DNA from: Candidatus Rokuibacteriota bacterium
GTDB taxonomy: Bacteria; Methylomirabilota; Methylomirabilia; Rokubacteriales; CSP1-6
Length of the DNA: 64,000 nucleotides
NCBI GenBank assembly: GCA_003221695.1
Contig: QHSX01000043.1
Coordinates: 1-64,000, forward strand
Reading direction: 5' to 3'
Shown: positions 9,938 through 56,846 of the stretch, piece after piece
Layout: every line of letters starts with the position of its first letter
Position numbering within the stretch: the first letter of the stretch is position 1
Position numbers and translations under genes: made by a program
The notes under the pieces: model-generated
The model's database searches: none
The model's input: only the letters and a program-made list of their open reading frames with translations
What the model was told of the DNA's origin: nothing

Positions 9938-11143
9938 ATGGTCGGCCTCTCGTTCGCCTCGCAGGCGACGATCCTGCCTGCCTTCGCGGCCTCCCTCGGC
10001 GCCCCGAACGTCGTCCTCGGTGCGATCCCTGCGGTGATGACCCTCGGGTGGTTCCTCCCGTCGCTCTTCGCCGCGGGCCACACGGAGGCCCTCACCCAGA
10101 AGCTTCCGTTCGTGCTCCGCCACACGGTCTGGGAGCGCGCGCCGTTTCTCGTCCTGGCCGTCGCCGCGTTCGTCGCGGCGGACCTGGCGCCTCAACTCGT
10201 GCTCGGCGTCCTGCTCGCCATGCTCCTCGTCGTGACCGGCGTGGGGGGCGTGCTGATGCCGGCGTGGATGGACATCGTGGGGCGGGCGATCCCGGTGACC
10301 TTGCGGGGCCGGTTCTTCGCGCTCTCGAATCTCGCCGCGGCCGGCGTCGGCTTCGCGGGGAGCTTCCTCACCGCCCACGTGCTAGCGGTGGTGCGGGCCC
10401 CGGCGAGCTTCGGCGTCTGCTTCCTCTGCGCCTCGGCCTGCATGGCGCTCTCGTACCTGGCGCTCGCCCTGGTCCGAGAGCCGGCGGCGACGACGTCGTC
10501 GCCGGCCGTGGCCCTCGGGACCTATCTCAGGCGCATTCCCCCTCTGCTTCGGCGTGACGCGAACCTCCGGTGGTTCCTGGTCGCCCGCGCCTTCGTCGTC
10601 GTCTCCACCATGGGCGGCGGGTTCTACACCGTCTATGCGCTCCGCGCCTGGGACGCGCCCGCCGCCGAGGCCGGCGTGTTCACCGGCCTCCTTCTCGCGG
10701 GTCAGATCATTGGCAACGTGACGCTCGGCTGGGTCGCCGACCGCCTGGGACATCGGCTCGTCATCGTCGCGGGCGTCGCGGCGATCGTGGGCGCGAATGT
10801 GCTCGCGCTCGGCGCGCCCTCGCTCGGCGCGTTCGGCGCCGTGTTCCTCCTGACGGGTGTCCAGGGGGCGGCGATCAGCATCTCCAACCTGAGCGTGCTT
10901 CTCGAGTTCGCGCCGGTGCCCGAGGAGCAGCCGACCTACGTGGGCCTGGGCACAACGCTGATGGCCCCCGTGGCGCTCGGCGCGCCGCTCACCGCAGGCC
11001 TCCTGGCCGACGCGCTCGGCTTCGCCGCCGTGTTCGCGCTCTCGGCCGCCGCGGGGGCGGTCGCTCTCACCCTGCTCCTCGCCCTGGTACAGGACCCGCG
11101 GGCAGTGACCGCACGGGGTGACACAAAGTGGAGACAGAAGTGA
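9938..11143 (+). CDS. MFS transporter
   Basis: 401 aa from ATG 9938, with about ten to twelve hydrophobic helices (for example APFLVLAVAAFVAADLAPQLVLG, FGAVFLLTGVQGAAIS, AVFALSAAAGAVALTLLLALV). A cytoplasmic loop between helices has the DRLGHR motif typical of the major facilitator superfamily. The frame stays open upstream and reads LRRNVLALGADYGLF directly into the ATG, which looks like a genuine MFS N-terminus. That segment has only CTG codons as possible starts (9881 or 9893), and 9881 would overlap the HyuA stop, so the true protein may be 15-19 residues longer. Last gene of the hyu operon; substrate unknown. Confidence 0.85.
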   Translation: MVGLSFASQATILPAFAASLGAPNVVLGAIPAVMTLGWFLPSLFAAGHTEALTQKLPFVLRHTVWERAPFLVLAVAAFVAADLAPQLVLGVLLAMLLVVTGVGGVLMPAWMDIVGRAIPVTLRGRFFALSNLAAAGVGFAGSFLTAHVLAVVRAPASFGVCFLCASACMALSYLALALVREPAATTSSPAVALGTYLRRIPPLLRRDANLRWFLVARAFVVVSTMGGGFYTVYALRAWDAPAAEAGVFTGLLLAGQIIGNVTLGWVADRLGHRLVIVAGVAAIVGANVLALGAPSLGAFGAVFLLTGVQGAAISISNLSVLLEFAPVPEEQPTYVGLGTTLMAPVALGAPLTAGLLADALGFAAVFALSAAAGAVALTLLLALVQDPRAVTARGDTKWRQK

Positions 11144-11209
11144 CCGAACGGCAAGTGGGAGATAGGTCGTGCGGTCGATAAATTCTGGAAATCATGGAGC
11201 CAAAGCCTG

Positions 11210-11225
11210 CGGCACACGGCTTGCT
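11210..11225 (+). promoter_or_regulatory. Sigma-54 (-24/-12) promoter of minor pilin set 1
   Basis: CGGCACACGGCTTGCT has GG (11211-11212) and GC (11223-11224) separated by exactly ten bases, with the CAC and TTGC cores of the RpoN consensus. It lies 113 bases before the pilin start at 11338 in a 194-base gap. The -12 end (TTGCTCAAA) is identical to that of the second pilin promoter at 15042. The call is from pattern; transcription was not tested. Confidence 0.7.
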
Positions 11226-11337
11226 CAAAGAAGACGGCCGGATAGGGTGCACGGTGCGGGTGTCCCTGCGGCGCCATTCTGACCCCTGGTACGAATGGTG
11301 ACACGCCCCGACACCAATGGGGGAGGACGTGTTCGAG

Positions 11338-11805
11338 ATGCGTCGGTTCGTCGCCCGATTGGAGCCCGGCTACACGATGCCGGAGCTTCTCGTGGTCGTG
11401 GCCATCCTGGGGATCACTGCCCTCATCGCCATCCCCTTGGTTCTGTCGTACATGCCCGGCGCCACGGTCAGGTACGCGGCGCGCGAGCTCCAGAGCGGCC
11501 TCAATCGCGCGAAGCTCATGGCGGTGACGACCCGCCAGCCCGTCTGTGTCCAGGCGACCGCTGGGGGCTACCGGTTCTTCCAGAACACGACGTGCACCGG
11601 CACGCCCTGGTCCGGCGCGGGCACCAGAGCGAACGGTCTCTTCACCCTCACCAACAACATCGCGGTGGCTCTCGTCGCGGGCGCGAACCCGGTCTTCAAT
11701 CAGTTCGGAATCGCCGTCCAGACGGGAACCCTGAGGGTGACGGGCCAGACCGGGCGCTCGACGACCGTCTCGGTCCAGGCGTCGGGGCGGGTGACGATCC
11801 CATGA
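11338..11805 (+). CDS. fimT: Type IV pilus minor pilin, GspH/FimT family (set 1)
   Basis: 155 aa. After a short basic leader (MRRFVARLEPG) comes the prepilin site G/YTMPE with Glu at +5, then a continuous hydrophobic helix (LLVVVAILGITALIAIPLVL). The periplasmic part has two Cys (QPVCVQ and NTTCTG) spaced as in FimT/FimU. I chose ATG 11338 over ATG 11317 because a strong ribosome site (gggagga, 11321-11327) sits at proper distance only from 11338. Minor pilins are cleaved by PilD and form the priming tip of type IV pili with PilV, PilW, PilX and PilY1, all of which follow. The ATGA overlap with the next gene shows translational coupling. Confidence 0.88.
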   Translation: MRRFVARLEPGYTMPELLVVVAILGITALIAIPLVLSYMPGATVRYAARELQSGLNRAKLMAVTTRQPVCVQATAGGYRFFQNTTCTGTPWSGAGTRANGLFTLTNNIAVALVAGANPVFNQFGIAVQTGTLRVTGQTGRSTTVSVQASGRVTIP

Positions 11806-12605
11806 ACGCGCCGAACGCCCTGCGACGCGACGAGCGTGGCTTCACGCTCACCGAGTTGCTGATCACGATGGCCATCCTCGGGCTCGTCATGTCGGCCGTT
11901 CTCGGCGTCCAGCTGACGAGCAACACCATGTTCCTCCGCGGCGAGAACCAGGCCGAGGCGCAGCAGGCTGCCCGCGCGGCGATGCTGATGGAGGAAGATC
12001 TGAGAATGGCGGGGTACGGGTGCCCCGACCTCGGCTGCCCCACGCCGCCGCCCGCCGGCGCCCAGCAGAAGGTCACCGCGGCGAGCGCGAACTCGGTCAC
12101 CTTCTGGGCCGACACCCTGAACGTCTCGACCCGGCTCTCCGCTGACGTCGCGGCCGGGGCGACGACGCTTCCAGTCGTCAACGCCTCGGGGATCATCGTC
12201 AACGACCGGATCTACCTCAACAACGGCAGCACGTGGGAAACGAGAGTCGTCACGGCGAAGGTCGGGAACAACCTGAGTGTCGCTGCGCTGACGAACGCCT
12301 ACGGCCAGGGGGTACAGGTGGGCCGGCCGCGGCTCATCGCCTACACGTATACCGCGGCGACGAGAACACTGACGAAGGACGCGGGCGACGGCAACGGCGT
12401 GCAGACGCTGGCCACCGGAATCGTGGGCCTCACGTTCGGTTACTTCAACAACTTCACTGACGCGTCCATCACCACGCCGGTCGCGGCGGGCAACCTCCCG
12501 CTCATCGGCAGGATCCAGATCCAGACGACGACTCAGTCGGCGCAGAGCGCGAGCGGCCCCAGCACGTATCGAATCAACACGAACGTCCGCCCGCGAAATC
12601 TCTAG
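11802..12605 (+). CDS. pilW: Type IV pilus minor pilin PilW-like (set 1)
   Basis: 267 aa. Leader MNAPNALRRDERG followed by the prepilin cleavage site G/FTLTELLI and a hydrophobic helix (MAILGLVMSAVLGVQL). The length and the segment EEDLRMAGYGCPDLGC directly after the stalk ('R.aGy.g' is a PilW hallmark) identify PilW rather than PilV. The C-terminus NTNVRPRNL matches the usual PilW end ('...n.v..RN'). ATG 11802 overlaps the fimT stop by four bases. It forms part of the pilus tip complex in the inner membrane/periplasm. A paralogue is at 16079. Confidence 0.85.
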   Translation: MNAPNALRRDERGFTLTELLITMAILGLVMSAVLGVQLTSNTMFLRGENQAEAQQAARAAMLMEEDLRMAGYGCPDLGCPTPPPAGAQQKVTAASANSVTFWADTLNVSTRLSADVAAGATTLPVVNASGIIVNDRIYLNNGSTWETRVVTAKVGNNLSVAALTNAYGQGVQVGRPRLIAYTYTAATRTLTKDAGDGNGVQTLATGIVGLTFGYFNNFTDASITTPVAAGNLPLIGRIQIQTTTQSAQSASGPSTYRINTNVRPRNL

Positions 12606-12620
12606 GGGGGTGAGGGAGCC

Positions 12621-14360
12621 ATGAACGCACGACACACGGTCCGAACGATCGCAACCGCCGAGCGCGGCGCCGCGCTGGTGATGACGCTCCTCGTCCTCAT
12701 CATCCTCACGGCGTTCGGCCTGACGCTCGTTGCCGTGGGCATGACCGAGATGGCGATTTCCTCCAACTGGCGTGACTACAGCAAGGACTTCTATGCGGCG
12801 GAGGCAGCGCTCGAGTCGGGCGTCGTCGCGCTCAGGAACCTTCTCGCGACAACCCCGACCCCGACGCAGCCGCAGCTCAACACCATCGCCACGGCGCCGA
12901 CGCTCAGCGATACGCGCATGACGTTCGGGGCGTACACGATCACGCCCGCCTCGCCGGCTCCGAGCCGGCAGACCTTCGCCACCGGCCCCTATAACGGGCT
13001 GTTCGGGTGGGGCCAGGGCTATGCGATCCAGGCACAGGTGAACGGCCAGGGCGGGACACGCGCCAACCTCACCCAGATGTTGCAGTACACGCGGGTGCCG
13101 CTCTTCCAGTTCGGAATCTTCTACGGCAAGGGCGTGGACCTGGAAATCCGCCCCGGCCCGGCCATGACCTTCAACGGGAAAATTTTCGCGAATAGCAACA
13201 TCTACATCGCCGCCGGCACCACGCTGCAGATTACCGACAGCGTGAAGACCGCCGGGAATATCTACCGCTCGATCAAGTCCGAGCCGGCCTATCCTAACTA
13301 CAACAACCCCCAGATCGAGGATGCAACCAATACGCTGCGAACCCTGGACTTCGATCACACGTACAAGCCAGGGTTCGGTGCGACGTGGTCGCCGGGCGAG
13401 TGGGCGACTCAGGCGATGCAGACCTTCGGGGGGACGGTGCAGGACAGCGCGATGGGGGTCGGGCAGATCATTCCCCCGCTCCCAGACCTGTTCGGAAACC
13501 CGAGCAACCCCGACGTCGTGGCCCATCAGCTGATCGAGATGCCGCAGCCCGGCGACTCCCCGGCGCTCACGTCGGCCAAGATGTACTCCCAGGCCGACGT
13601 CCGGATCATCGATGGTGTCGCGACCGGCCTCACGTGTGGGTCGCCGCCGCCAGGCGCGATCACGACGAAGACGTTCTACGACGCGCGTGAAACCAAGACG
13701 ATGTCGACCTACGACATCGACGTCAATCTCCTTCGCATCAACAACTGCCTTCCCAAGCAGAACGCCACCGACAGCGGGACCGTCGTCTACGTGGCCGGCA
13801 CGAACACGGCGACCAACCCGGTGGTCCGGCTCGTGAATGGCTCGCGGCTCCCGGATCGGGGGCTGACCGTGGTGTCCCAGAACCCGGTCTATATCACGGG
13901 GGATTACAACACGGTGCCGGTCGGGGCGAACCACCCGCCGGCGGCCGTCCTGGGTGATGCTGTCACCGTCCTGTCCAACGCATGGCAGCAGAACAACTAC
14001 GATACCAAGGGGAACCAGGCCTTCCAGAACCGCGTGGCTTTGGCCACCACGGTGAACGCCGCCATCGCGACCGGACCTAGCTCGGAATCCTCGATGGGCC
14101 GTGACAACGGCAAGGCGAACAACCTCGTCCGCTTCCTCGAGGATTGGACGAACAAGACGTTCAGCTACAGCGGCTCCATGCTCTCCCTCTGGCACAGCCA
14201 GCAGGCCACGGGGGACTGGCGGTGCTGCGGCGCCGGGGGTCTCTACTACTACGCGCCGCCGAACCGGGTCTGGGGCTACGACACCCTGTTCGATACCACC
14301 CAGCCGCCCGGCACGCCGATGGGCATCATCATGACGAAGGGGTCCTGGTCACAGTCGTGA
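12621..14360 (+). CDS. pilX: Large PilX-like minor pilin (set 1)
   Basis: 579 aa. The N-terminus (AERGAALVMTLLVLIILTAFG, a PilX_N pattern) lacks the canonical FTxxE prepilin motif, as is normal for PilX, and is followed by ...MTEMAISSNWRDYSKDFYAAEAALESG, the conserved PilX stalk. What is unusual is the size: ordinary PilX proteins are about 150-200 aa, and the second copy in this locus is 147 aa. Residues about 150-579 form a large extra domain rich in Asn, Thr, Gly and aromatics (for example YGKGVDLEIRPGPAMTFNGK and VVRLVNGSRLPDRGLTVVSQ) that reads like a beta-helix or adhesin module. The gene has a good ribosome site (gggggtgaggga) and lies 15 bases after pilW. Confidence 0.8.
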   Translation: MNARHTVRTIATAERGAALVMTLLVLIILTAFGLTLVAVGMTEMAISSNWRDYSKDFYAAEAALESGVVALRNLLATTPTPTQPQLNTIATAPTLSDTRMTFGAYTITPASPAPSRQTFATGPYNGLFGWGQGYAIQAQVNGQGGTRANLTQMLQYTRVPLFQFGIFYGKGVDLEIRPGPAMTFNGKIFANSNIYIAAGTTLQITDSVKTAGNIYRSIKSEPAYPNYNNPQIEDATNTLRTLDFDHTYKPGFGATWSPGEWATQAMQTFGGTVQDSAMGVGQIIPPLPDLFGNPSNPDVVAHQLIEMPQPGDSPALTSAKMYSQADVRIIDGVATGLTCGSPPPGAITTKTFYDARETKTMSTYDIDVNLLRINNCLPKQNATDSGTVVYVAGTNTATNPVVRLVNGSRLPDRGLTVVSQNPVYITGDYNTVPVGANHPPAAVLGDAVTVLSNAWQQNNYDTKGNQAFQNRVALATTVNAAIATGPSSESSMGRDNGKANNLVRFLEDWTNKTFSYSGSMLSLWHSQQATGDWRCCGAGGLYYYAPPNRVWGYDTLFDTTQPPGTPMGIIMTKGSWSQS

Positions 14361-14773
14361 GGAGCCCGGCGACGACGAACGACCGGGGCATGACCCTCGC
14401 CGAGGTGCTGGTCGCCGTCGCGATCCTCACGATCGGCCTCCTCTCCGTCGTGGGCATGCTCTCCGCGGGCTTCTCGAACGTCGTCGTCAGCGGCGGCCAG
14501 TCGAAGGCGACCTCCTACGCGCGGCAGAAGCTCGAAGAGCTCAAGAACAGGTGCTACAACAACGGCACCACCTGCGTTGATCCGACCTTCCCCGCGAGCG
14601 CGGGCGCCGACACGCCGGAGGCCGGGATCACCCGGTCGTGGACGGTGACCCAGGCGGGCGCCACGCTGGCGCCCAACCGCTTGTCGCAGATCACCGTGAC
14701 GGTCAGGTGGACGAGCGCCGTGGGGGCTGCGGGCGGTCAGCAGGTGAACGTGCAGACGATGCGCGCCGAGTGA
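14357..14773 (+). CDS. pilV: Type IV pilus minor pilin PilV-like (set 1)
   Basis: 138 aa. GTG 14357 overlaps the PilX stop (GTGA). The leader VRSPATTNDRG precedes the cleavage site G/MTLAEVLVA and a hydrophobic helix (VAILTIGLLSVVGMLS). The sequence AEVLVAVAILTIGLL is typical of PilV/GspI. A short periplasmic domain follows with one Cys pair (RCYNNGTTCVD) and a terminal strand (RLSQITVTVRWTS). It is the last gene of set 1; a strong hairpin begins seven bases after its stop. Confidence 0.85.
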   Translation: MRSPATTNDRGMTLAEVLVAVAILTIGLLSVVGMLSAGFSNVVVSGGQSKATSYARQKLEELKNRCYNNGTTCVDPTFPASAGADTPEAGITRSWTVTQAGATLAPNRLSQITVTVRWTSAVGAAGGQQVNVQTMRAE

Positions 14774-14779
14774 CCTGAT

Positions 14780-14816
14780 CATCGCGCGCGTTCCCGGCGC
14801 GGGAACGCGCGCGATG
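14780..14816 (+). terminator. Perfect 16-bp hairpin after pilV
   Basis: A perfect inverted repeat with a 16-bp stem (14780-14795 with 14801-14816) and a five-base loop (ggcgc) lies directly after the first pilin set. There is no T-run, so it may act as an mRNA 3'-end stabiliser or a factor-assisted terminator rather than a classical intrinsic one. It separates pilin set 1 from the sigma-54 promoter of set 2. Confidence 0.6.
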
Positions 14817-15041
14817 CGCCCGATCCTTCCCGTCCGCGCCTTCCTCCGCTTCGACTCCTTCACTGAGCCCCTGCTCACCGCGTGGTGTGATCACGAGGCG
14901 AGAAGTAGTCGCCCGGAGTTGCCGGAAATCGTGGCGTTTTCGGAATCGCTGGTCCATCGCTTGTCACCCGATGCCTAGCAACTTGTCACTGATCGGGGAA
15001 GAAAGCGATGTAACTTCCGTCGTTTCAAGGCCCAGGAGGTC

Positions 15042-15057
15042 TGGCATAGCCATTGCT
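15042..15057 (+). promoter_or_regulatory. Sigma-54 (-24/-12) promoter of minor pilin set 2
   Basis: TGGCATAGCCATTGCT has GG (15043-15044) and GC (15055-15056) ten bases apart and an intact TTGC -12 box. The start at 15082 lies 25 bases after the element, so the leader would be short. The -12 region TTGCTCAAA is shared with the promoter at 11210. The 308-base gap from 14774 otherwise holds only the pilV hairpin. Confidence 0.75.
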
Positions 15058-15081
15058 CAAAAGTGGCTCGCTGTGAAGATC

Positions 15082-15588
15082 ATGAATCGCTCGCAGAGTG
15101 ACCGAACAATTTCCGGCGGCTTCACGGTCGTCGAACTCCTCGTGCTCGTCGCCGTGATCGCTATCGTCACCGCGATCGGTACGCCGTTCTACCTGAGCTT
15201 CCAGCGGGCCCAGGAAACCACCGGCGCGGCGCGAGAGCTCGTGGCCGCGCTCGGCCAGGCGCGCCAGCTTGCGATCACGCGCAACACGTCGTTCAGCGTG
15301 GAGCTCCAGACGTCCCCGCAGAACCGGCTGCGGTTCTGCTCGGGTACGGCGACCCCGTGCCCCGGGGGCCTGGTCTGGGTGGGGGCAGGGACCGATGGCT
15401 CGGGCTGGATGAGAATCGACAACGCGGTCCGCATCGTCCTGGGGCCGAGGATCACGTTCAGCTCGCTCGGCGCGGCGACGGCCTCCGGCACGCTCCGGGT
15501 GCAGAACTCGTCGCAAACATCTTGCCTCGACGTGGCCGTGAGCCCATCCGGTGGGGCTCGGACCACGGCCGCTGCGGCGTGCCCATGA
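15082..15588 (+). CDS. fimT: Type IV pilus minor pilin, GspH/FimT family (set 2)
   Basis: 168 aa. Leader MNRSQSDRTISGG, then the cleavage site G/FTVVELLVL and helix VAVIAIVTAIGTPFYLSFQ. FimT hallmarks follow: ARELVAALGQARQLAITRN and Cys pairs (LRFCSG, ATPCPGG). I chose ATG 15082 because it gives a normal-length prepilin leader and lies just after the sigma-54 promoter. The frame is open further upstream but that part has unusual codon use and no homology. First gene of the second minor-pilin set; the ATGA overlap with the next gene indicates coupling. Confidence 0.88.
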   Translation: MNRSQSDRTISGGFTVVELLVLVAVIAIVTAIGTPFYLSFQRAQETTGAARELVAALGQARQLAITRNTSFSVELQTSPQNRLRFCSGTATPCPGGLVWVGAGTDGSGWMRIDNAVRIVLGPRITFSSLGAATASGTLRVQNSSQTSCLDVAVSPSGGARTTAAAACP

Positions 15589-16079
15589 TGCCGCGGAAGA
15601 GCGACAGCCGCGGGTTCACGATCGTCGAGGTCCTGATCGCCTCGATGATCCTGCTGGTCGCCCTGCTGGTCCTGGCCGGCATGTTCCCGATGGGGTACCG
15701 ACAGGTCGCCGATGCGGGAAGGATGACGCTCGCCGTGACCGGGGCCAGACAGATTCTCGAGGACACGGGTGGCCTCCCCTTCGCGAGCCTCACAAACCTG
15801 AACGGCTTCGACACGACGAATCCGGCGACTCTTCCCGCGAACGAGCCCGAGCTGGCGACCGCCCGCCGCTGGGTGTACATGTTCGCGGGCCCGGGCAATG
15901 GCTTCACCTTCACGTCGGCGGAGCTGGCCCAATGGGGCACCGTGACCCCCTTCGGGGGACGGGCGACGATCCAGGTGACCTCCCCCAGCGCGACGCTGCG
16001 TCAGGCCTCGGTCACGGTCACGGTCCCTGGCCTGCCCCCGCAGGTCCAGCTCACGACCGTCATCGCGAGCATGTTCTGA
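15585..16079 (+). CDS. pilV: Type IV pilus minor pilin PilV-like (set 2)
   Basis: 164 aa. ATG 15585 overlaps the preceding stop. Leader MMPRKSDSRG, cleavage site G/FTIVEVLIA, then helix SMILLVALLVLAGMFPMGY. The FTIVEVLIASMILLVALL pattern is PilV/GspI-like. The periplasmic domain is short with no Cys pair. In set 2 the order is FimT-PilV-PilW-PilX, while in set 1 it is FimT-PilW-PilX-PilV, so the two sets are not a simple block duplication. Confidence 0.83.
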   Translation: MMPRKSDSRGFTIVEVLIASMILLVALLVLAGMFPMGYRQVADAGRMTLAVTGARQILEDTGGLPFASLTNLNGFDTTNPATLPANEPELATARRWVYMFAGPGNGFTFTSAELAQWGTVTPFGGRATIQVTSPSATLRQASVTVTVPGLPPQVQLTTVIASMF

Positions 16080-16747
16080 TGCGTCCCAGCCGGCTCCGCA
16101 GCCAGGACGGCTTCACGCTGGTCGAGGTCCTGATCGCGATGAGCGTTTTCCTGCTCATTCTCCTCGGGGTCTTCCAGGTCTTCGAGCCGAGCAACACCGC
16201 GTACCAGTCGAGCCAGCGCAAGCTCTCCGTCCAGCAGAACGGCCGGATCGCGATGGACATGATCGTCAGGCAGATCCGGATGGCCGGTGCCTTCCCGGAG
16301 AACTTCGACGCCAACCCGGCGAACGACCTGGCCAACGGCGTTCAGATCGCCACCGACACGGCGCTGGCCATCGCCGGGGACCTCGACGGGTCCGGCGCGA
16401 GCAACGCCTTCCTCTTCTGTCGCGACGCCTCCGGACTGCGGCGCGTCAGGGGCGCGATCGGTAACGCGGCTTCCTATACGTGCGGCAACGGCGACATCCT
16501 GGCCGAGAGCGTCACGAGCCTCAGCTTCGCCTACTACGACGCCAACAACAATCCGGTCCCGAATCCGCCGACCGCCCCCTATCAGCTCGACGGGCAGGCG
16601 CCCGGGGCCGCCCCGACCTTCGTGACCACGACGGAGCGGGCGGCCGTGCGGAGGGTCGTCATCAAGCTGACCGCCCGAGAGACCGTTCCCAACCAACCGG
16701 CTCAGACCTACACGTTGAACTCCGACGTGAGGCTCCGGAATCCCTGA
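16079..16747 (+). CDS. pilW: Type IV pilus minor pilin PilW-like (set 2)
   Basis: 222 aa. ATG 16079 shares its A with the preceding TGA. Leader MRPSRLRSQDG, cleavage site G/FTLVEVLIA, hydrophobic helix MSVFLLILLGVFQVF. The sequence RIAMDMIVRQIRMAGAFPEN is the PilW 'R.aG' stalk motif, and the C-terminus YTLNSDVRLRNP ends in the typical RN pattern, like its paralogue at 11802. There are two Cys (LFCRDA, YTCGNG). Role: tip-complex minor pilin. Confidence 0.85.
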   Translation: MRPSRLRSQDGFTLVEVLIAMSVFLLILLGVFQVFEPSNTAYQSSQRKLSVQQNGRIAMDMIVRQIRMAGAFPENFDANPANDLANGVQIATDTALAIAGDLDGSGASNAFLFCRDASGLRRVRGAIGNAASYTCGNGDILAESVTSLSFAYYDANNNPVPNPPTAPYQLDGQAPGAAPTFVTTTERAAVRRVVIKLTARETVPNQPAQTYTLNSDVRLRNP

Positions 16748-16760
16748 GGGAGGCCCGCGC

Positions 16761-17204
16761 ATGTGCCGACTGTGGCGACAGTGCTCCGACGAGCGTGGAA
16801 TGGCGCTGGTGATGGCGCTTTTTACCATGGCCATTCTTCTTGCGGCCGGCACGTTCTTACTGCGAATGTCCGCCACCGAGGGCGACATTGCGTACAACTC
16901 GATGTGGGCGGAGGGCAGCTTCTTCGCCGCCGACGCGGCCATCAATCTCGGTCTCGACCTGGTGTCGCCGACCGTCACGACGACGCCGATCGCTTCGACG
17001 ACGATCGGAAGCTTCACCTACCAGGGGAACGTCAACTTCTCCGGTACGCAACCGCAGCCGGGCTACTCCCTCGGCAGCGGGACGGGGTACAACCCGGGCG
17101 GGTACGTCTTCTATAACTTCGCGGTCACGGGCTCGGGGGCGGGCCCGAGAAGCTCCCAGCGCACCATCAACGTCGTGGCTGCGTACGGCCCGGTCGCCCA
17201 GTGA
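16761..17204 (+). CDS. pilX: PilX-like minor pilin (set 2)
   Basis: 147 aa, normal PilX size. The N-terminus (DERGMALVMALFTMAILLAAG) is a PilX_N pattern, followed by the stalk MSATEGDIAYNSMWAEGSFFAADAAI. The ribosome site gagggagg lies about ten bases before ATG 16761. Its stop overlaps the PilY1 start. In Pseudomonas, PilX helps export PilY1 to the pilus tip; the direct coupling here fits that. Confidence 0.82.
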   Translation: MCRLWRQCSDERGMALVMALFTMAILLAAGTFLLRMSATEGDIAYNSMWAEGSFFAADAAINLGLDLVSPTVTTTPIASTTIGSFTYQGNVNFSGTQPQPGYSLGSGTGYNPGGYVFYNFAVTGSGAGPRSSQRTINVVAAYGPVAQ

Positions 17205-20134
17205 GGTCCAGCGTGAAGAGACTGACAGCGAGTGTCCTGATCGCCGCGTTCCTGACACTGCAGGTCCACCCGTCGGCGTTTGCCGACGACAGCGACATCT
17301 TCGGCGCGAACATCCAGCCGAACGTGATGATCCTGATCGACAACTCGGGCAGCATGGCCCAGACGGTCCCGGGGGGCGCCTATGACCCGGCGACGACCTA
17401 CCCCGTCCTGCAGCAGTGCGACCCGGTGACGACCAAGAAACCCAAGACGACGACGTACTCGGACTGCGTCTCGACCAAGGTGTACCAGAGCAGCAAGAAG
17501 GGTGAGTACACCTTCTACGCCACCACTGTCTCCGACGTGAGTGACTCGAGCGCGCAGACTGCTCTGAACACGGTGGGGTACTGGTCGGGAAAGATCGCCA
17601 AATCCACCGTGAACCTCTACACGGGCAACTACCTCAACTACCTGATCGGGGTTTGCGGGGGAGACCCGGCCTGCCAAGAGTCGAAAATGAAAGTCGCCCA
17701 GGATGTCGTCAACTTCCTGCTCGACAACGTGCACGGCGTCCGCTTCGGTGTGATGACCTTCTACTACGGCTCCAATGGCGTGCGCGGCGGCAAGATGGTC
17801 GCGGAGATCGGGAAACCCGTTGGGGCGATGAAGGCCGCGGTCAACCAACTCACCCCGACCGGTGACACCCCGCTGGGCGAATTTGCGTACGACGCGGGCC
17901 AGTACTACAAGGGCGCGACGCTCACGGACGGGACGACGTTCACGAGCCCGATCCAGCTCTCGTGCCAGCCGAACTTCGTCATCCTGATCACGGACGGGAT
18001 GCAGACCTCTGGCATTCGGACCCTGGTGCCACCCGGCAGCAGCGCGCCGAACTCCACCAACAACGTGGCGTCGGACCTCTTCACCCAAGATTACTCGTCT
18101 GCGTTCTCGGGGGTGCAGAACGTCATCGTCCACACCGTCGGGTTCGGTATCGGCGCCAGTGAGTCGGCGCAGGCCATCGCCGACCTCAAGCAGGCGGCCA
18201 AGAACGGCGGCGGGCAGTTCTACGAGGCGAACAACAAGACCGATCTCGAGAAGTCGCTTCAGGATGCGATCCGGCGAATCGTCCAGGCAACCTTCACCTT
18301 CGCCACCCCGGTCCTGCCCTCGACCAGCACGACGGGAAGCTCGAAGGCCTATCTCGCGGCCTTCAAGTCCGACCCGTCTCGCCCGTTCTGGCAGGGCTAC
18401 CTCAAGGCCTATCAGCGGGACAGTCAGGGCCTGGTCCCGGTGGACGGCTCGGGGGTTCCGCTCACCTCGGCAATGGTCTGGGAGGCCGGTCAGGCGTTGA
18501 GTGCGATCCCGGCCGCGAACAGGACGATCTATACGGAGGTCAGCGGAAGCATCACGCCATTCACCAAGACCAACAGCGCCATCACGCCGGCCCTCCTCGG
18601 CGTCTCGACTAGCCTCCAGCACGACCAGATCATCGACTTCATCCGGGGCATCGACGTCAACGACGAGAATGAGAATGGCAACACGACGGAAGATCGGGCC
18701 TGGAAGCTCGGCGACATCTTCCATGCGACGCCGGTCCTGGTCACGCCACCGATCCTGGCTCTGAACGACTCGAGCTATCAGGCGTTCAAGACGGCGAATT
18801 CGTCCCGGACCAAAGTGCTGATCGCGGGGGCCAACGACGGGATGCTCCACGCCTTCAAGGAGAGCGACGGCGCCGAGCTCTGGGGCTTCATCCCGTCGGA
18901 CCTGCTCGAGGACTTGCAGGGCCTCACGGCGACCTCGGGAGAGCACCAGTTCTTCGTGGACGGCAGCCCGATCGCCGCCGACGTCAAGATCTCGGGCACC
19001 TGGAAGACGATCGTCGTCTTCGGCCTGAGACGGGGCGGAAAGACCTACCACGCTCTCGATATCACGGACACCACCAACCCCAGGTACCTGTGGAGCTTCA
19101 CCGACACGAAGCTGGGGGAGACCTGGTCCGAGCCCGCCATCGGCAAGGTGAAGATCGGCGGCGCCGACAAGTTCGTCGCGTTCGTCGGGGGCGGGTACGA
19201 CACGCCGCAGAACAACGCCCTCGGCAAGGCGTTCTTCGTGATCGACCTCGCCACCGGCGCGAAGCTCTGGGAATATTACAACGACGGCACGAGCGACGAC
19301 CGGCAGTACATGTACTTCAGCATCCCCGCCAACCCGACCGCCGTGGACCTGAACAGTGACGGCTACATCGATCGGGTCTACATCGGCGACGTGGGCGGGC
19401 AGATCTGGAAATTCGACGTCTCCGCGGGGGCGACGAGCAGCTGGGCGGGGAAGCGCCTCTTCGCCGCGCCTCCGACCCCGACCACGCCCCCGCCGGGCGG
19501 GGAATACTATCCACCTCAGGCTGTCTACGGCACGCCGGCGCTCGCCCTGGCCCCTGACCTGAAGCTCTGGGTCTACTTCGGTACGGGCGACCGGAACCAC
19601 CCCAACAACACGACGGCCCCGAACCGGTTCTATGGGATCAGGGACACGACCGACATGACGAACGGCTCCGCGCTGACGGAGTCCTCCCTCGCAGACGTGA
19701 CGAGCTCCAACGGGAGCTCAGCGTCGGGGTGGTTCTTCCGCCTCGGTAGCAACGAGAAGGTGCTCGCCACGGCCAACGTCTTCAACATGAACGTCCTGTT
19801 CTCCAGCTTCACCCCGACGACCACTACCACGTGCGAGAGCGGCGGCGGGACGGCCAAGCTCTACTCCGTCCAGGTCCTCACGGGCTACGCAGCCATCGAT
19901 TTCGTCACGGGTCTTGCCCTCGGCACGACCGACAGCTCGGCGACCCGGTCCGCGACCATCGGTGGAGGGATCGCCTCGATGCCGATCATCGTGATCACCC
20001 CACCAACGAGCCCAGGGCAAAAAGCATCGTCGTCGGCCATCACGGGCACCACGAACCAGCAGCTCCTGAACAACACGGTGCCTGCGCCGCCCTTCTTGAA
20101 GCAGGTCCGCTCCTGGATGGAGCAGGTGCAGTGA
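17201..20134 (+). CDS. pilY1: PilY1-type type IV pilus tip protein, copy 1
   Basis: 977 aa, slightly short for PilY1. A signal peptide (about residues 6-28, ending in AFA) precedes a von Willebrand A domain with intact MIDAS (DNSGS, Asp47). The C-terminal half is the PilY1 beta-propeller: KVLIAGANDGMLHAFKESDG, RRGGKTYHALDITDT, and a calcium-binding EF-like loop DLNSDGYID (Asp716-Asp724) before RVYIGDVGGQIWKFD. PilY1 sits at the pilus tip, controls retraction through calcium and can act as adhesin or mechanosensor. GTG 17201 gives a GTGA overlap with pilX; GTG 17213, preceded by gaggt, would align with the start of copy 2 and is equally plausible. The last 126 bases are nearly identical to the end of copy 2. 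Confidence 0.88.
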   Translation: MRSSVKRLTASVLIAAFLTLQVHPSAFADDSDIFGANIQPNVMILIDNSGSMAQTVPGGAYDPATTYPVLQQCDPVTTKKPKTTTYSDCVSTKVYQSSKKGEYTFYATTVSDVSDSSAQTALNTVGYWSGKIAKSTVNLYTGNYLNYLIGVCGGDPACQESKMKVAQDVVNFLLDNVHGVRFGVMTFYYGSNGVRGGKMVAEIGKPVGAMKAAVNQLTPTGDTPLGEFAYDAGQYYKGATLTDGTTFTSPIQLSCQPNFVILITDGMQTSGIRTLVPPGSSAPNSTNNVASDLFTQDYSSAFSGVQNVIVHTVGFGIGASESAQAIADLKQAAKNGGGQFYEANNKTDLEKSLQDAIRRIVQATFTFATPVLPSTSTTGSSKAYLAAFKSDPSRPFWQGYLKAYQRDSQGLVPVDGSGVPLTSAMVWEAGQALSAIPAANRTIYTEVSGSITPFTKTNSAITPALLGVSTSLQHDQIIDFIRGIDVNDENENGNTTEDRAWKLGDIFHATPVLVTPPILALNDSSYQAFKTANSSRTKVLIAGANDGMLHAFKESDGAELWGFIPSDLLEDLQGLTATSGEHQFFVDGSPIAADVKISGTWKTIVVFGLRRGGKTYHALDITDTTNPRYLWSFTDTKLGETWSEPAIGKVKIGGADKFVAFVGGGYDTPQNNALGKAFFVIDLATGAKLWEYYNDGTSDDRQYMYFSIPANPTAVDLNSDGYIDRVYIGDVGGQIWKFDVSAGATSSWAGKRLFAAPPTPTTPPPGGEYYPPQAVYGTPALALAPDLKLWVYFGTGDRNHPNNTTAPNRFYGIRDTTDMTNGSALTESSLADVTSSNGSSASGWFFRLGSNEKVLATANVFNMNVLFSSFTPTTTTTCESGGGTAKLYSVQVLTGYAAIDFVTGLALGTTDSSATRSATIGGGIASMPIIVITPPTSPGQKASSSAITGTTNQQLLNNTVPAPPFLKQVRSWMEQVQ

Positions 20135-23007
20135 AGAGACTAACAGCGCTCGTCCTGATCGCCGCGCTCGTGCTGGCGCAGTTTCCTCCGTCGGCGTTTG
20201 CCGACGACAGCGACATCTTCGGCGCGAACATCCAGCCGAACGTGATGATCCTGCTGGACAACTCGCTCAGCATGACCGACAACGTCAATTCGCAGGCCTA
20301 TGTCCCCGCGACCAACTACACCGTCGTCAACACCTGCGGAAGCAGCTGGAATACCGCGTGCGACCGCGTCAAGGTCTACCAGAGCAACTTCTGGCACACG
20401 TACCTGCAATACGCCAACAACATCGCAGCCGTGAACAGCGCGGCCGCTCGCAGCGCACTGTCCACGAACGGGTACTGGTCGGGACGAATCGGCGGCTCCA
20501 CGGTGAACCTTTACGTCGGCAACTACATCAACTATCAATACGCGGGCTGCGTGGGCCTCACCTGCCCCAACGCCAAGATGGGCATCGCCAAGCGCGTCAT
20601 CGAAAACCTGTTCGACAACGTGACGGGTGTTCGGTTCGGGGTCATGCAGTTCACGAACAACGGCACGCAAGGCCAGGGCGGGGGCGCGATGGTCGCGCAG
20701 ATCGGGACCGACGTCGCCACGATGAAGACGGCGGTCGACGGCATCACTCCTTATGGGTACACCCCGCTGGGCGAGTTCCTCTACGACGGCGGCCAGTACT
20801 TCAAGGGCCAGGCCCTCAGGAACGGGCAAACCTACGCGAGCCCGATCCAGGCCTCGGTCGGCGAGTGTCAGCCGAACTTCATCATCCTGATCACGGACGG
20901 GCTCCAGAACGGCAGCATGGACGTGCGGACGGAGGCGACTAATCGTTACACGCAGGATCATGCGTCCTCATTCACGGGAACGCAGAACGTGATCGTCCAC
21001 ACCATCGGGTTTGGGATCGGCGTGAGCGAGCCAGGGAACGTCATCGCCGCCAATGATGTCCTGAGGACGGCGGCCCAGAATGGCGGCGGCCAGTTCTACG
21101 ACACCAACAACGAGGCCGACCTGGAGGCGGCGCTTCAGGACGCGATCCGCCGGGTCATCCAGGCGACCTTCACCTTCGCCACCCCGGTGCTTCCCTCGAC
21201 CAGCACCACGGGGAGCACCAAGGCCTATCTCGCAGCCTTCAAGTCCGACCCGTCTCGCCCGTTCTGGCAGGGCTACCTCAAGGCCTACCAGCGAAACTCC
21301 GACGGGCAGGTCCCGGTCGACGCCAACGGGGTGCCCCTGACGTCGGCTCTGGTCTGGGAGGCCGGTCAGGTGCTGACCACCATCCCGGCCGCGAGCCGGA
21401 CGATCTATACGGTGGTCGCCGGGAATCGCGAATCGTTCGTGAAGACCAACGCCGCCGTCACGGTCGCCCTCCTCGGCGCCTCCGGCACCACCCAGCGGGA
21501 CCAGATCATCGACTACCTGCGGGGCGTCGACGTCTTTGACGAGAACAAGAACAGCAACACCACGGAGGATCGGAGCTGGAAGCTCGGCGACATCTTCCAC
21601 TCGACGCCGGTCCTCGTCACGCCGCCGCTCCTGGCGCTGAACGACTCCAGTTATCAGTCGTTCAAGACGGCTCAGGCGTCCCGCACCAAGGTGTTGATCG
21701 CGGGGGCCAACGACGGGATGCTCCATGCCTTCCGGGAGACGGACGGTAGGGAGCTCTGGGCGTTCATCCCGCCGGACCTACTCGCCAGCGTCAAAAACTT
21801 GACTTCCACGTCGGGGGATCACCTCTTCTACGTGGACGGCAGCCCGATCGCGGCGGACATCAAGGTCTCGGGTAGCTGGAAAACGATCGTCCTCTTCGGC
21901 GTGCGACGCGGGGGGAACCACTACTACGCCCTGGACATTACGGACACCACCAACCCCACGTACCTGTGGAGCTTCACCGACTCCAAGCTGGGGGAGACGT
22001 GGTCCGAGCCCGCCATCGGTAAAGTGAAGATCGGCGGGGCCGACAAATTCGTGGCGTTCGTCGGCGGAGGGTACGACTCGGGGTCGAACAACGCCCTCGG
22101 TAAGGCGTTCTTCGCCATCGATCTCTCGGACGGCACGAAGCTCTGGGAGTACTACAACGACACCACGCTGGACGACCGTCAGTACATGAACTTCAGCATC
22201 CCCGCGAACCCGACCGCCGTGGACCTGAACAGCGACGGATACGTCGACCGGGTCTACATCGGCGACGTGGGCGGGCAGGTCTGGAAGTTCGACGTGTCCG
22301 CCAATGCGACATCGAGCTGGGCGGGGAAGCGCCTCTTCGCCGCGGTGGCGACCGACACCACGCCGGCGCCCGGGGAATACTATCCAGCGCAGGCCATCTA
22401 CGGCACGCCGGCGCTCGCTCTCGGCCCTGACCTGAAGGTCTGGGTCTTCTTCGGTACGGGCGATCGGAACCACCCCAACAACACGACGTCCCCGAACCGA
22501 TTCTATGGGGTCAAAGACACCACCGACATGACGAACGGCTCCGTGCTGAGGGAGACCAGCCTCGCGGACGTGTCGACCTCCAACGCGACCGACCCGGATG
22601 GGTGGTTCTTCACGCTGGGCAGCAACGAGAAGGTGCTTGCGACGGCCAACGTCTTCAACACGCAGGTCTTGTTCTCGACCTTCACGCCGGTCAGCACCGT
22701 GACGTGCACGAGCGGCGGCGGGACAGCCAAGCTGTACTCCGTCCAGATGCTCACGGGTTACGCGGGCATCGATTTCAGCACGGGCACGGCCCTCACCACG
22801 ACCGACAGCTCGCACACGCGGTCGACGACCCTCGGCGAGGGGATCGCCTCGATGCCGGTCATCTTGATCATCCCACCGGCAAGCCCAGGGCAAAAAGCAT
22901 CGTCGTCGGCCATCACGGGCACGACGAACCAGCAGCTCCTGAACAACGCGGTGCCTCCGCCTCCCTTCCTGAAGCAGGTTCGCTCCTGGATGGAGCAGGT
23001 GCAGTGA
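20131..23007 (+). CDS. pilY1: PilY1-type type IV pilus tip protein, copy 2
   Basis: 958 aa. GTG 20131 overlaps the stop of copy 1. Same architecture: signal peptide (MKRLTALVLIAALVLAQ... ending AFA), vWA domain with MIDAS DNSLS (Asp43), and the propeller with calcium loop DLNSDGYVD (Asp698-Asp706). Long stretches such as TFTFATPVLPSTSTTG and FWQGYLKAYQR are the same in both copies, whereas the vWA-proximal part (about residues 55-300) has diverged. This suggests two tip variants that share a conserved retraction-control domain but differ in ligand- or force-sensing surface. It is followed by the TPR gene with a GTGA overlap. Confidence 0.88.
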   Translation: MKRLTALVLIAALVLAQFPPSAFADDSDIFGANIQPNVMILLDNSLSMTDNVNSQAYVPATNYTVVNTCGSSWNTACDRVKVYQSNFWHTYLQYANNIAAVNSAAARSALSTNGYWSGRIGGSTVNLYVGNYINYQYAGCVGLTCPNAKMGIAKRVIENLFDNVTGVRFGVMQFTNNGTQGQGGGAMVAQIGTDVATMKTAVDGITPYGYTPLGEFLYDGGQYFKGQALRNGQTYASPIQASVGECQPNFIILITDGLQNGSMDVRTEATNRYTQDHASSFTGTQNVIVHTIGFGIGVSEPGNVIAANDVLRTAAQNGGGQFYDTNNEADLEAALQDAIRRVIQATFTFATPVLPSTSTTGSTKAYLAAFKSDPSRPFWQGYLKAYQRNSDGQVPVDANGVPLTSALVWEAGQVLTTIPAASRTIYTVVAGNRESFVKTNAAVTVALLGASGTTQRDQIIDYLRGVDVFDENKNSNTTEDRSWKLGDIFHSTPVLVTPPLLALNDSSYQSFKTAQASRTKVLIAGANDGMLHAFRETDGRELWAFIPPDLLASVKNLTSTSGDHLFYVDGSPIAADIKVSGSWKTIVLFGVRRGGNHYYALDITDTTNPTYLWSFTDSKLGETWSEPAIGKVKIGGADKFVAFVGGGYDSGSNNALGKAFFAIDLSDGTKLWEYYNDTTLDDRQYMNFSIPANPTAVDLNSDGYVDRVYIGDVGGQVWKFDVSANATSSWAGKRLFAAVATDTTPAPGEYYPAQAIYGTPALALGPDLKVWVFFGTGDRNHPNNTTSPNRFYGVKDTTDMTNGSVLRETSLADVSTSNATDPDGWFFTLGSNEKVLATANVFNTQVLFSTFTPVSTVTCTSGGGTAKLYSVQMLTGYAGIDFSTGTALTTTDSSHTRSTTLGEGIASMPVILIIPPASPGQKASSSAITGTTNQQLLNNAVPPPPFLKQVRSWMEQVQ

Positions 23008-25884: not shown

Positions 25885-25900
25885 TGGCGAAGCCGTTGCA
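25885..25900 (+). promoter_or_regulatory. Sigma-54 (-24/-12) promoter of the OmpA-like lipoprotein gene
   Basis: TGGCGAAGCCGTTGCA has GG (25886-25887) and GC (25898-25899) ten bases apart and a full TTGCA -12 box. It lies 32 bases before ATG 25933, in the 153-base gap after the TPR gene. The expected start site near 25912 leaves room for the AGGAGG ribosome site. Confidence 0.75.
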
Positions 25901-44260: not shown

Positions 44261-45607
44261 ATGGACAACGTCCTCGTGGTAGACGACGAGCGCAACATTC
44301 GGGCCCTCGTGGCCAGGGTCCTCGGCCAGGACCAGGTCGAGGTCCATGGCGCCGGCACAGGGAAGGAAGGTCTCCAGATGGCCGACGAGGTGAGCCCGGA
44401 CCTCGTCCTCCTCGACCTCCGCCTCCCGGACATGGACGGCATGGACGTCCTCCGCGCGCTGCGGACCCGATACCCTGAGATTGCCGTGATCATCATCACG
44501 GGCTTCGGGCAGATCCAGAGTGCAGTGGAGGCCATTAAGGTCGGCGCGACCGACTATCTGGAGAAGCCCTTCGAGCACGTCGAGAAGCTCAAGCTCGCCG
44601 TCGCGCGCGCCCTGGACGAGGTCAGGGCGAAAAGCGAGATTCGGCGCTTGCACGGGCTTCAGGAGAAGCAGTACGGGGTCGACCAGATCATCGGCGACTC
44701 TGAACCCACCCGCACTCTCCGCGACCTCATTCGCAAGGTCGCCCGAAGCGAGGCGCAGACGATCCTGATCCAGGGTGACAGCGGGACCGGAAAGGAGCTC
44801 GTGGCGCGCGGCCTACACTACGAGAGCCCACGGCGCGACTTTCCCTTCATGGAGGTCAACTGCGCGGCCATCACGGAGACGCTCTTCGAGAGCGAGCTGT
44901 TCGGTCACGAGAAGGGGGCCTTCACGGACGCGAAATCTGCCAAGAAGGGGCTCATGGAGCTGGCGGACCGGGGGACGCTCTTCCTGGACGAAGTGAGCGA
45001 GATGTCGCTCAACAGCCAGGCGAAGTTCCTGCGGGTCCTCCAGGAGCGCGTCTTCCGGCGCGTCGGGGGCACGCGTGACATCAGGGTGGACTTGCGCGTC
45101 ATCACAGCCTCGAATCGGCCGCTCGAGGCCCGAGTGAAGGAAGGGCAGTTCCGTGAGGACCTCTTCTACCGTCTGAACGTCATTCCGATCCACATCCCGC
45201 CCCTCCGCGAGCGCCGGGAGGACATCATGCCGCTTGCTCGGCACTTCCTCACGGAATCGAACGTGCGCTCGCACAAGACGATCAAGGGATTCACGTCGGA
45301 GGCCGAGCGCCTCATGGTTGGCTATCCTTGGCCGGGCAACGTGCGTGAGCTCCGTAACCTGATCGAGCGCGTCGTCATCCTCGGCGCGTCCGAGCACATC
45401 GAGCCGCAACACCTGCCCATCCAATTCGCGGCCCAGGCCATCGAGGTACCCCGCCCTGAGTCACCGCAGGAGTTTCGGACGCTCGCAGAAGTGGAGCGCG
45501 CCTACATCAATCAGGTCATGCAGCGGGTCGAGGCCAACAAGAGCAAGGCTGCGAAAATTTTAGGGATCTCCCGCCAGACGCTCCGCAAGAAGCTCATGGA
45601 GGAGTGA
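44261..45607 (+). CDS. NtrC-family sigma-54-dependent response regulator
   Basis: 448 aa. Receiver (residues about 1-120; phospho-acceptor Asp52 in LVLLDLRLPDMDG; Lys in TDYLEKPFE). AAA+ domain: Walker A GDSGTGKEL, the sigma-54-contact loop reads GAFTDA instead of GAFTGA (in ESELFGHEKGAFTDAKSA), Walker B GTLFLDEVSEM, sensor segment RVITASNRPLEARVKEGQFR and REDLFYRLNVIPIHIPPLRE. C-terminal Fis-type HTH NKSKAAKILGISRQTLRKKL. It would bind enhancers and activate RpoN promoters, and four such promoters lie in this window. Kinase candidates are the proteins at 51809 and 53947. Confidence 0.93.
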   Translation: MDNVLVVDDERNIRALVARVLGQDQVEVHGAGTGKEGLQMADEVSPDLVLLDLRLPDMDGMDVLRALRTRYPEIAVIIITGFGQIQSAVEAIKVGATDYLEKPFEHVEKLKLAVARALDEVRAKSEIRRLHGLQEKQYGVDQIIGDSEPTRTLRDLIRKVARSEAQTILIQGDSGTGKELVARGLHYESPRRDFPFMEVNCAAITETLFESELFGHEKGAFTDAKSAKKGLMELADRGTLFLDEVSEMSLNSQAKFLRVLQERVFRRVGGTRDIRVDLRVITASNRPLEARVKEGQFREDLFYRLNVIPIHIPPLRERREDIMPLARHFLTESNVRSHKTIKGFTSEAERLMVGYPWPGNVRELRNLIERVVILGASEHIEPQHLPIQFAAQAIEVPRPESPQEFRTLAEVERAYINQVMQRVEANKSKAAKILGISRQTLRKKLMEE

Positions 45608-45868
45608 CGCCGTCGGGCTACCTTCTGGCCACTGGTCGATTACGTACCGTTTGAGACCTTTAGGCCGGGAATTCCGTAAGTTGCCTGGAATTCAGGACTT
45701 CCGGAAACCGACAGCCGGTCAGATCTGGGAGTTGGCTAGGAATGAGCCAATCGGATCCAGATGACACTCGACAGCACATCGGTGGAATTCCCCAATATTA
45801 TGGTCAGTTGCGGAGCAAAGCCGCCTTTGGTCTACGGTTTGCTTTCCATAGGTCCTGCGGAGAGCTGG

Positions 45869-47518
45869 ATGAGACCTACGTTTAAGCGGCTGGAAGTCAA
45901 GGATCTCGGCAACTTGGAGAAGCTCGTGGCCGATAATATCGAAGGTATCGAGCCCGGCCTCCGGGTCGTTGACTCGCGCCTCGTCCTGGGGCAAGCGGCG
46001 ATCGACTTGGTCGCGCTCGACGCCAGTGAATCGCTGGTTCTCATTGCGCTCGACTTCATGGCGGACGAGGGCCTGCTCCTGCGAGCCATGGACGCGTATT
46101 CGTGGTGCCTCGAGTACCCCGACACGCTCCGGAGGCTCTATCCAATGGCGAACGTGTCGTTCGCCCGCCCGCCCCGGATCCTGTTCATCGTCGAACGCCT
46201 GACCGATGCGTTCGTGCGGCGGATCAAGCACCTGAGCTTCCTTGAGATCGACTGTCTGGAGTTTCGGCATCTCGAGGTGAACGGCGCGTCGGCCGTCTAT
46301 TTCGATCTGGTCGAGCGGCTGAGGCGCGCAGCGCCCATCGAGCCCGCCCCTGACGAGCGTGTGATCACGACGACCCCCGTGCGAACCCCAAAGCGGATCG
46401 ATCCCGAGCCGCCCGTCTTCAGACCGGCGTCGCCCGTCGTCGCCGAGCCGACGGTGGAGCAGCCCTCGCCCCCGTCGCCCGTCTTCGAGCCCACGCCCTT
46501 CGTGCCGGCCGAGCCCACGCCTGAGAGCATCACTGCCGCGTCGGCGGTCCACGAGCGGATTGTCTCGCTCGAGACGCGCCTGGCCGAGCTCCTCGCCGAG
46601 GCGTCCGCCGCCCCAACGGCATCGCCCGCTGAGACGACCTCCGCTGCGACGATGTCATTCGCCGTGGAGATGCCGTCCCTGGAGAGCCTGTTCACCGCGG
46701 AGCTGCCGCCGGCTGGGGAAACGCCGTCCGCCGAGGAGATGCCGACGGCGTTCGAGATGCCGGCTGAAGAACACGCAACCGAGGAGGAGCCGGCGGCCGC
46801 CAGCGCGGACGTCGATCCAGAAGTGGGCGCCGAAGAGCCCGCGCTCGAGTTCGAGCCTGTCGGCGACACCGATCAGGAGGAGGTGCGGGAGGCGCCGTCC
46901 GTGGCGGCTCGCGTGGCCGCGAATCCTGATTGGCAGGCGCTGTTGAGTCAGCTCGGAGTCGAGATTCCGGCTCCGCCCAGAGGGACGAAGGCCGAGTCGA
47001 CCGAGCGCGCGTATGAGACGCCGCCGCCGGTCAACATGGGCATGGCGGCCGTCGCCGAGGTCGCGTCGGCCGTCGAAGAGACCGTCCCGGCCGTCGAAGA
47101 GGCCGGGCCACCCCCGGTCGAACCGACGGCGCCCGAGAGAACGCTGCCAGCGTGGGCGAAGCCCTCGGCCAACCGAGTCGGGCAGCCGGTCGGCGGGCGG
47201 ACGTACTTCTTCTCGCAGGCGGCGAAGGGCCCGACGCCCGCCGACGCACCCGCGGCGACGCCCGTAGCGGCACCGGCGCAGCCGGCGACCGCGCCGTCCT
47301 ATCTGCGGCCCGCAGCGACGGCACAGCGGTCGGTGTGGCCGCCCGCCCCGCCCGCGGCACAGATCGCGGTTCCAGGGTCGCAGCCCGCGCCGGCGTCCGC
47401 GCCGAAGCCCCTGGAGCCCGCCACGGACCGTCCGGAGCTCGAGGCGCTGCACTTCCCGAAAGACGGTCTCTCGCGTCAGTGGCTCGAGTTCCTCAACCAG
47501 CTCGGCGGGACGCAGTGA
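45869..47518 (+). CDS. Protein with degenerate PDDEXK-like N-domain and Pro/Ala/Glu-rich tail
   Basis: 549 aa from ATG 45869. The frame is open to 45761, but the 36 extra codons have low-GC third positions unlike the rest, and cggagag precedes 45869. Residues about 1-150 look like a DUF91/NucS-type nuclease fold: FKRLEVKDLGNLEKLVADNI, LGQAAIDLVALDASESLVLI, RAMDAYSWCLEYPDTLRRLY. The place of the catalytic E-x-K reads ALD, so it is probably not a nuclease. Residues about 155-510 are a low-complexity Pro/Ala/Glu/Val-rich region, followed by a C-terminal helix (FPKDGLSRQWLEFLNQLGG). The function is not recognised; its position just before the HD-GYP gene suggests a scaffold or adaptor in signalling. 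Confidence 0.7.
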   Translation: MRPTFKRLEVKDLGNLEKLVADNIEGIEPGLRVVDSRLVLGQAAIDLVALDASESLVLIALDFMADEGLLLRAMDAYSWCLEYPDTLRRLYPMANVSFARPPRILFIVERLTDAFVRRIKHLSFLEIDCLEFRHLEVNGASAVYFDLVERLRRAAPIEPAPDERVITTTPVRTPKRIDPEPPVFRPASPVVAEPTVEQPSPPSPVFEPTPFVPAEPTPESITAASAVHERIVSLETRLAELLAEASAAPTASPAETTSAATMSFAVEMPSLESLFTAELPPAGETPSAEEMPTAFEMPAEEHATEEEPAAASADVDPEVGAEEPALEFEPVGDTDQEEVREAPSVAARVAANPDWQALLSQLGVEIPAPPRGTKAESTERAYETPPPVNMGMAAVAEVASAVEETVPAVEEAGPPPVEPTAPERTLPAWAKPSANRVGQPVGGRTYFFSQAAKGPTPADAPAATPVAAPAQPATAPSYLRPAATAQRSVWPPAPPAAQIAVPGSQPAPASAPKPLEPATDRPELEALHFPKDGLSRQWLEFLNQLGGTQ

Positions 47519-56830: not shown

Positions 56831-56846
56831 TGGCCTCGGCGTTGCA
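56831..56846 (+). promoter_or_regulatory. Sigma-54 (-24/-12) promoter of the exported protein gene
   Basis: TGGCCTCGGCGTTGCA has GG (56832-56833) and GC (56844-56845) ten bases apart and a full TTGCA. It lies 61 bases before ATG 56908, inside the 276-base gap after the hybrid kinase gene. The gap is AT-richer than its surroundings and holds no other gene. Confidence 0.75.

Follow-up and report, generated by a model that had tools for sequence, protein, structure and literature searches.

The two minor-pilin operons in the 64,000-nucleotide (64-kb) stretch of DNA analysed here, referred to as the window, are each preceded by a -24/-12 element of the sigma-54 type. The favoured reading, with a probability of about 0.83, is that these elements are the RpoN promoters of the set 1 and set 2 operons and that an NtrC-family activator, likely PilR, acts on half-sites spaced by 22 bp, which would place both sets in one regulon with pilA. 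The genes for the tip parts and for the main pilus subunit very probably share one switch, composed of sigma-54 and a common upstream activator site. This reading is built on sequence and its conservation, namely the promoters, their link to fimT, the spacing of the half-sites and the rpoN, pilS and pilR genes found in the genome.

Organization of the minor-pilin sets

The window is part of contig C11 within a 4.6-Mb draft genome of an uncultured soil bacterium, whose closest relatives with a name are Candidatus Rokubacteria/Rokuibacteriota, and displays two runs of minor-pilin genes between positions 11338 and 23007.

11338-11805, + strand: set 1 FimT/FimU-like minor pilin (Pfam GspH, E 5.7e-7; N_methyl)
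11802-12605, + strand: set 1 PilW-like minor pilin (N_methyl, E 4.8e-9; named from gene order and resemblance to set 2 PilW)
12621-14360, + strand: set 1 PilX (PilX_N, E 2.6e-10; unusually long, 579 aa)
14357-14773, + strand: set 1 PilV-like minor pilin (N_methyl, E 9.8e-7; 35% identity with set 2 PilV over 100 aa)
14780-14816, + strand: 17-bp hairpin between the sets (-35 kcal/mol, z -3.7; without a T-run)
15082-15588, + strand: set 2 FimT/FimU-like minor pilin (Pfam GspH, E 2.2e-7)
15585-16079, + strand: set 2 PilV-like minor pilin (N_methyl)
16076-16747, + strand: set 2 PilW-like minor pilin (N_methyl)
16761-17204, + strand: set 2 PilX-like minor pilin (without a Pfam match; 39% identity with set 1 PilX over 66 aa)
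17201-20134, + strand: PilY1 tip protein, copy 1 (T4P_PilY1, E 5.4e-28)
20131-23007, + strand: PilY1 tip protein, copy 2 (start approximate; 70% identity with copy 1)

The gene order is FimT-PilW-PilX-PilV in set 1 and FimT-PilV-PilW-PilX in set 2, where the two PilY1 genes follow; the names PilV and PilW were assigned from gene order and weak similarity. Set 2 comprises all five types of tip-complex component (FimU/FimT, PilV, PilW, PilX by weak similarity only, and two PilY1), and set 1 has four pilins without PilY1. Both minor-pilin sets named in the preliminary description are present, but the genome contains four in total, and the tandem genes at 17201-23007 of set 2 are its only PilY1. 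Candidate start codons of set 1 FimT lie at 11317, 11329 and 11338. The hairpin at 14780-14816 probably marks the end or an attenuation of the set 1 transcript and is consistent with two transcription units.

The putative sigma-54 promoter sites

Sites were scored over the 11 positions of the consensus TGGCA(C/T)-N5-TTGC(A/T), that is TGGCAY-N5-TTGCW, and the following two lie before the minor-pilin sets.

11210-11225, + strand: putative sigma-54 -24/-12 promoter of set 1 (CGGCACACGGCTTGCT; 10/11 to consensus)
15042-15057, + strand: putative sigma-54 -24/-12 promoter of set 2 (TGGCATAGCCATTGCT; 11/11 to consensus)

The GG-N10-GC geometry reported earlier for both sites was confirmed, with the invariant pairs at 11211-11212 and 11223-11224 in site 1 and at 15043-15044 and 15055-15056 in site 2. 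Similarly, the identical -12 end is real: TTGCTCAAA is common to both sites and occurs in the whole window at 11221 and 15053 only. Transcription is predicted to start about 12 bases past the GC pairs, at ~11236 for set 1 and ~15068 for set 2. Site 2 lies ~25 bases and site 1 ~112 bases upstream of the respective fimT, and the predicted set 1 leader of ~100 bases counts against the favoured reading. The fold of this leader was not better than that of shuffled sequences, and an Rfam scan of 10800-15300 returned no significant match. In one relative (G001, locus L128) the leader region 11258-11340, which has neither an Rfam match nor an unusual fold, is better conserved than the bases immediately past the promoter.

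Conservation upstream of fimT genes

The same layout is seen in dozens of related genomes. Sites resembling site 1, CGGCACACGCCTTGCT, were found in G001, G006 and G003, while set 2-type fimT genes are preceded by TGGCACACCCATTGCT and close variants in seven relatives, one site of this kind belonging to the named genome AR27 (L183). The upstream DNA of all GspH/FimT genes was read in 40 genomes (the present genome and relatives), and a site scoring at least 10/11 precedes 22 of the 50 type IV pilus fimT genes. In contrast, none was found upstream of the 27 type II secretion gspH genes, which encode pseudopilins of the same family, nor on the reverse strand or with the mirrored pattern. A second set comprised 52 fimT genes from 31 Rokubacteria genomes absent from the first; 45 of them reach 9/11 or more and 25 reach 10/11 or more, against zero in both controls, and the low scorers are five genes at 7/11 and two at 8/11. 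Some of the loci in these counts are orthologues and hence not fully independent. Thus the claim that a promoter of sigma-54 type stands before both minor-pilin sets holds for the window and extends to relatives, and a putative sigma-54 promoter before minor-pilin sets is the rule in the Rokubacteria lineage.

The candidate upstream activator element

Upstream of each promoter lies a pair of pentamers separated by two helical turns.

11118-11144, + strand: set 1 candidate activator element (GTGAC at 11118 and 11140, 22 bp apart; -118/-96 from the predicted start)
14963-14989, + strand: set 2 candidate activator element (GTCAC at 14963 and 14985, 22 bp apart; -105/-83 from the predicted start)

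Set 1 displays an additional GTGAC at 11105, and the set 2-type pair recurs in seven other genomes, where its position relative to the -24 element is kept within 3 bp. GTGAC/GTCAC is enriched before minor-pilin sigma-54 sites (18 found, 5.3 expected) and before pilA (31 against 8.4), in contrast with 24 other sigma-54-like sites of the genome, where no enrichment was seen (8 against 8.5). In the second set the count is 23 against 3.9 expected, with the pentamer present in 13 of 14 sequences. Pairs of half-sites 21-22 bp apart number 12 at minor pilins and 13 at pilA, with 0.2 expected in each case. Tandem dimers separated by a whole number of helical turns are a usual layout for NtrC-class activators.

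The pilA half-sites form TGAC-N7-GTCA inverted repeats, which themselves recur at 21-22 bp. This inverted repeat was considered as the common element and rejected, being found in 12 of 25 cases at pilA but in 2 of 17 at minor pilins; the common feature is the 22-bp tandem spacing. The candidate elements of sets 1 and 2 thus match those of pilA in half-site and spacing, not in orientation, which is opposite in set 1 and set 2 while pilA has mostly inverted pairs. As the orientation differs among the three, the identity of the binder is uncertain.

Other pilin loci and regulators

The core locus (L071, on contig C10) is ordered pilT, pilC, pilS, pilR, three near-identical pilA genes, a TPR membrane protein, pilD and the fourth minor-pilin set. 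The pilS and pilR genes lie directly upstream of the three tandem pilA, each of which carries a TGGCAT-N7-CGCA-like site (9/11) 56-59 bases before its start codon; in relatives, sites before 25 of 30 pilA genes score 9/11 or higher. The tandem copies occupy L071:5733-7712, and a fourth pilA (93%) with a 10/11 site of its own is found at C27:18211-18591. The third minor-pilin set, on contig C1, has CGGCACAGGCCTTGCT 13 bases before FimT, and the type II secretion cluster on contig C15 is without a sigma-54 site. The genome holds a single copy of rpoN and about 20 genes for NtrC-family activators.

The core (fourth) minor-pilin set is preceded by a sigma-54-like site, TGG(T/C)CC-N5-TTGC(A/T), that lies inside pilD at L071:10421-10438 and spells FGPFLA codons. 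It uses codons that window genes seldom employ (TTT, CTT and GCA account for 4.8%, 5.0% and 3.5%, respectively, of the codons for the amino acid concerned), and the site, including the rare CTT GCA codons, is kept across many genera. The FGPFLA protein motif does not by itself explain this pattern. In this genome the pilD-embedded sites score 9/11 and are without upstream half-sites, and because they are weaker and lack these they are ranked below the two promoters of the window. Across Rokubacteria, it seems rather likely that pilA, several minor-pilin sets and PilY1, and hence the whole filament, belong to a single sigma-54 regulon and share an enhancer with 22-bp spacing, the core-set promoter being embedded in the FGPFLA codons of pilD.

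Alternative explanations

In a GC-rich window the sites could have arisen by chance, with ordinary sigma-70 promoters serving the operons. Counts within the window alone prove little. With up to two mismatches, 6 sites were found in the window against 9.15 expected, which is no enrichment and was set aside as evidence; at 10/11 or better there are 3 against 0.88 per 64 kb in third-order Markov sequences, an 11/11 site is expected 0.017 times per 64 kb, and the mirrored window likewise yields 2 sites of at least 10/11. The genome scan for RpoN sites proposed in the preliminary description was run by pattern searches and gave 27 matches to NGGCAY-N5-TTGCT against 8 for the reversed pattern, many of the 27 lying just upstream of plausible genes, among them that for P-II, a classical sigma-54 target. 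Chance can be set aside as extremely improbable because the sites stand before two fimT genes and are conserved before fimT in many other genomes, with zero in all three kinds of control. A recent duplication, with the promoter shared by descent only, would account for adjacent sets of the same gene types and for the identical TTGCTCAAA. However, it is very unlikely, since the upstream regions have only short words in common, identity between the minor pilins reaches only about 34-39% where they align and the gene order differs between the sets. Duplication of the promoter region itself was rejected, as the two upstream regions do not align; an old common descent of all fimT operons is possible.

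The sites could also be true sigma-54 promoters at which one or both sets answer to a dedicated activator other than PilR, giving alternative tips in the manner of Myxococcus HsfA, whose effects on clusters 1 and 3 are opposite in sign (PMC9109919). Among the roughly 20 candidates in the genome, one lies in the window, an unpaired NtrC-type regulator at 44261-45607 with 47% identity with PilR. Such an arrangement is nevertheless unlikely, because the half-site and its 22-bp spacing are common to set 1, set 2 and pilA and absent from the other sigma-54-like sites of the genome. The preliminary description had offered either coordinated or alternative tip assembly; the 22-bp TGAC/GTCA repeat common to the sets and pilA favours the former, and since the same enhancer grammar predicts co-expression, the latter, understood as separate switching, is not supported. 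A single activator for set 1, set 2 and pilA would be the simplest reading, and PilR is the likely one since its gene adjoins pilA, although with so many NtrC-family activators encoded a PilR paralogue could serve one set. As separate observations, no histidine kinase gene was seen directly beside the regulator at 44261-45607, and a 9/11 sigma-54-like site at 45828 falls within the start region (45761-45880) of the gene that follows.

Proposed regulation and comparison with known systems

In the proposed single regulon, sigma-54 (RpoN) would start the set 1 and set 2 operons from sites 1 and 2. An NtrC-family activator, most likely the PilR of a PilS-PilR pair, would bind the tandem TGAC/GTCA half-sites two helical turns (22 bp) apart, which in both sets lie some 55-95 bp upstream of the -24 element, contact the sigma-54 polymerase by looping and then open the promoter with ATP. 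Because pilA has the same promoter type and upstream grammar, the major pilin, the minor pilins and PilY1 would be made together. From the DNA we infer that the cell uses RpoN here, that PilR is the binder, that looping and co-expression take place, and where the start sites lie. Minor pilins and PilY1 prime the pilus, so the number of pili started should depend on how much of them is made relative to the major pilin, and one sigma-54 switch for both would be a simple means of holding this ratio. The analysis yields a candidate binding motif and regulon for Rokubacteria, a lineage of which we know no cultured member.

Control of pilA by PilSR and sigma-54 is textbook knowledge. The core locus resembles the PilS-PilR/RpoN systems of Pseudomonas aeruginosa, Geobacter sulfurreducens and Kingella kingae in its sigma-54 site before pilA, its pilS-pilR genes and its candidate upstream activator sites. 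The earlier statement that sigma-54 dependence is unusual for minor-pilin operons fits P. aeruginosa, where a pilR mutant shows a change of fimU-pilVW-pilY1-pilE that a pilA mutant shows as well and that had earlier been found Vfr-dependent and was judged indirect (PMC6058289). In contrast, the minor-pilin operons described here appear to have sigma-54 promoters of their own together with the upstream repeats of pilA. In G. sulfurreducens, pilA depends on RpoN and has PilR immediately upstream, and pilus genes are among the predicted RpoN targets; in the available portion of that study the target named is pilA, not a minor-pilin operon (PMC2725144).

The same statement fits Myxococcus xanthus less well. 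Several sets of four minor pilins per genome occur there, clusters 1-3 with PilY1 (PMC7541494), and the NtrC-like HsfA of HsfBA directly binds the promoters of minor-pilin/PilY1 clusters 1 and 3, with opposite regulation (PMC9109919). Multiple minor-pilin sets and an NtrC-like regulator on cluster promoters are thus common to both systems, the regulator being a predicted one here. However, every Myxococcus cluster comes with a PilY1 of its own and the HsfA effect is opposite or nil, while here PilY1 occurs in one of four sets and the promoters look co-regulated with pilA. NtrC-like control of minor-pilin/PilY1 clusters is therefore a kind of system already known from Myxococcus, beyond which searchable papers gave no direct match on minor pilins under sigma-54. 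The searchable literature, outside which most subscription journals lie, yielded no description of a sigma-54 regulon that links pilA with several minor-pilin sets across a whole lineage by means of a common spaced repeat. The present data suggest direct control of the sigma-54 type for minor pilins beyond the Myxococcus case.

Additional sigma-54-like sites

The 15 bases of site 2 (GGCATAGCCATTGCT) also occur at L011 (C15:123466-123480), ahead of a gene whose product begins with a stretch resembling a signal peptide. Within the window, a sigma-54-like site at 25885-25900 (TGGCGAAGCCGTTGCA) precedes a gene for an OmpA-like lipoprotein and is kept as TGGCGAAGCTGTTGCA in L185. Similarly, a 10/11 site at 56831-56846 lies ahead of a gene whose product has a signal-like N-terminus.
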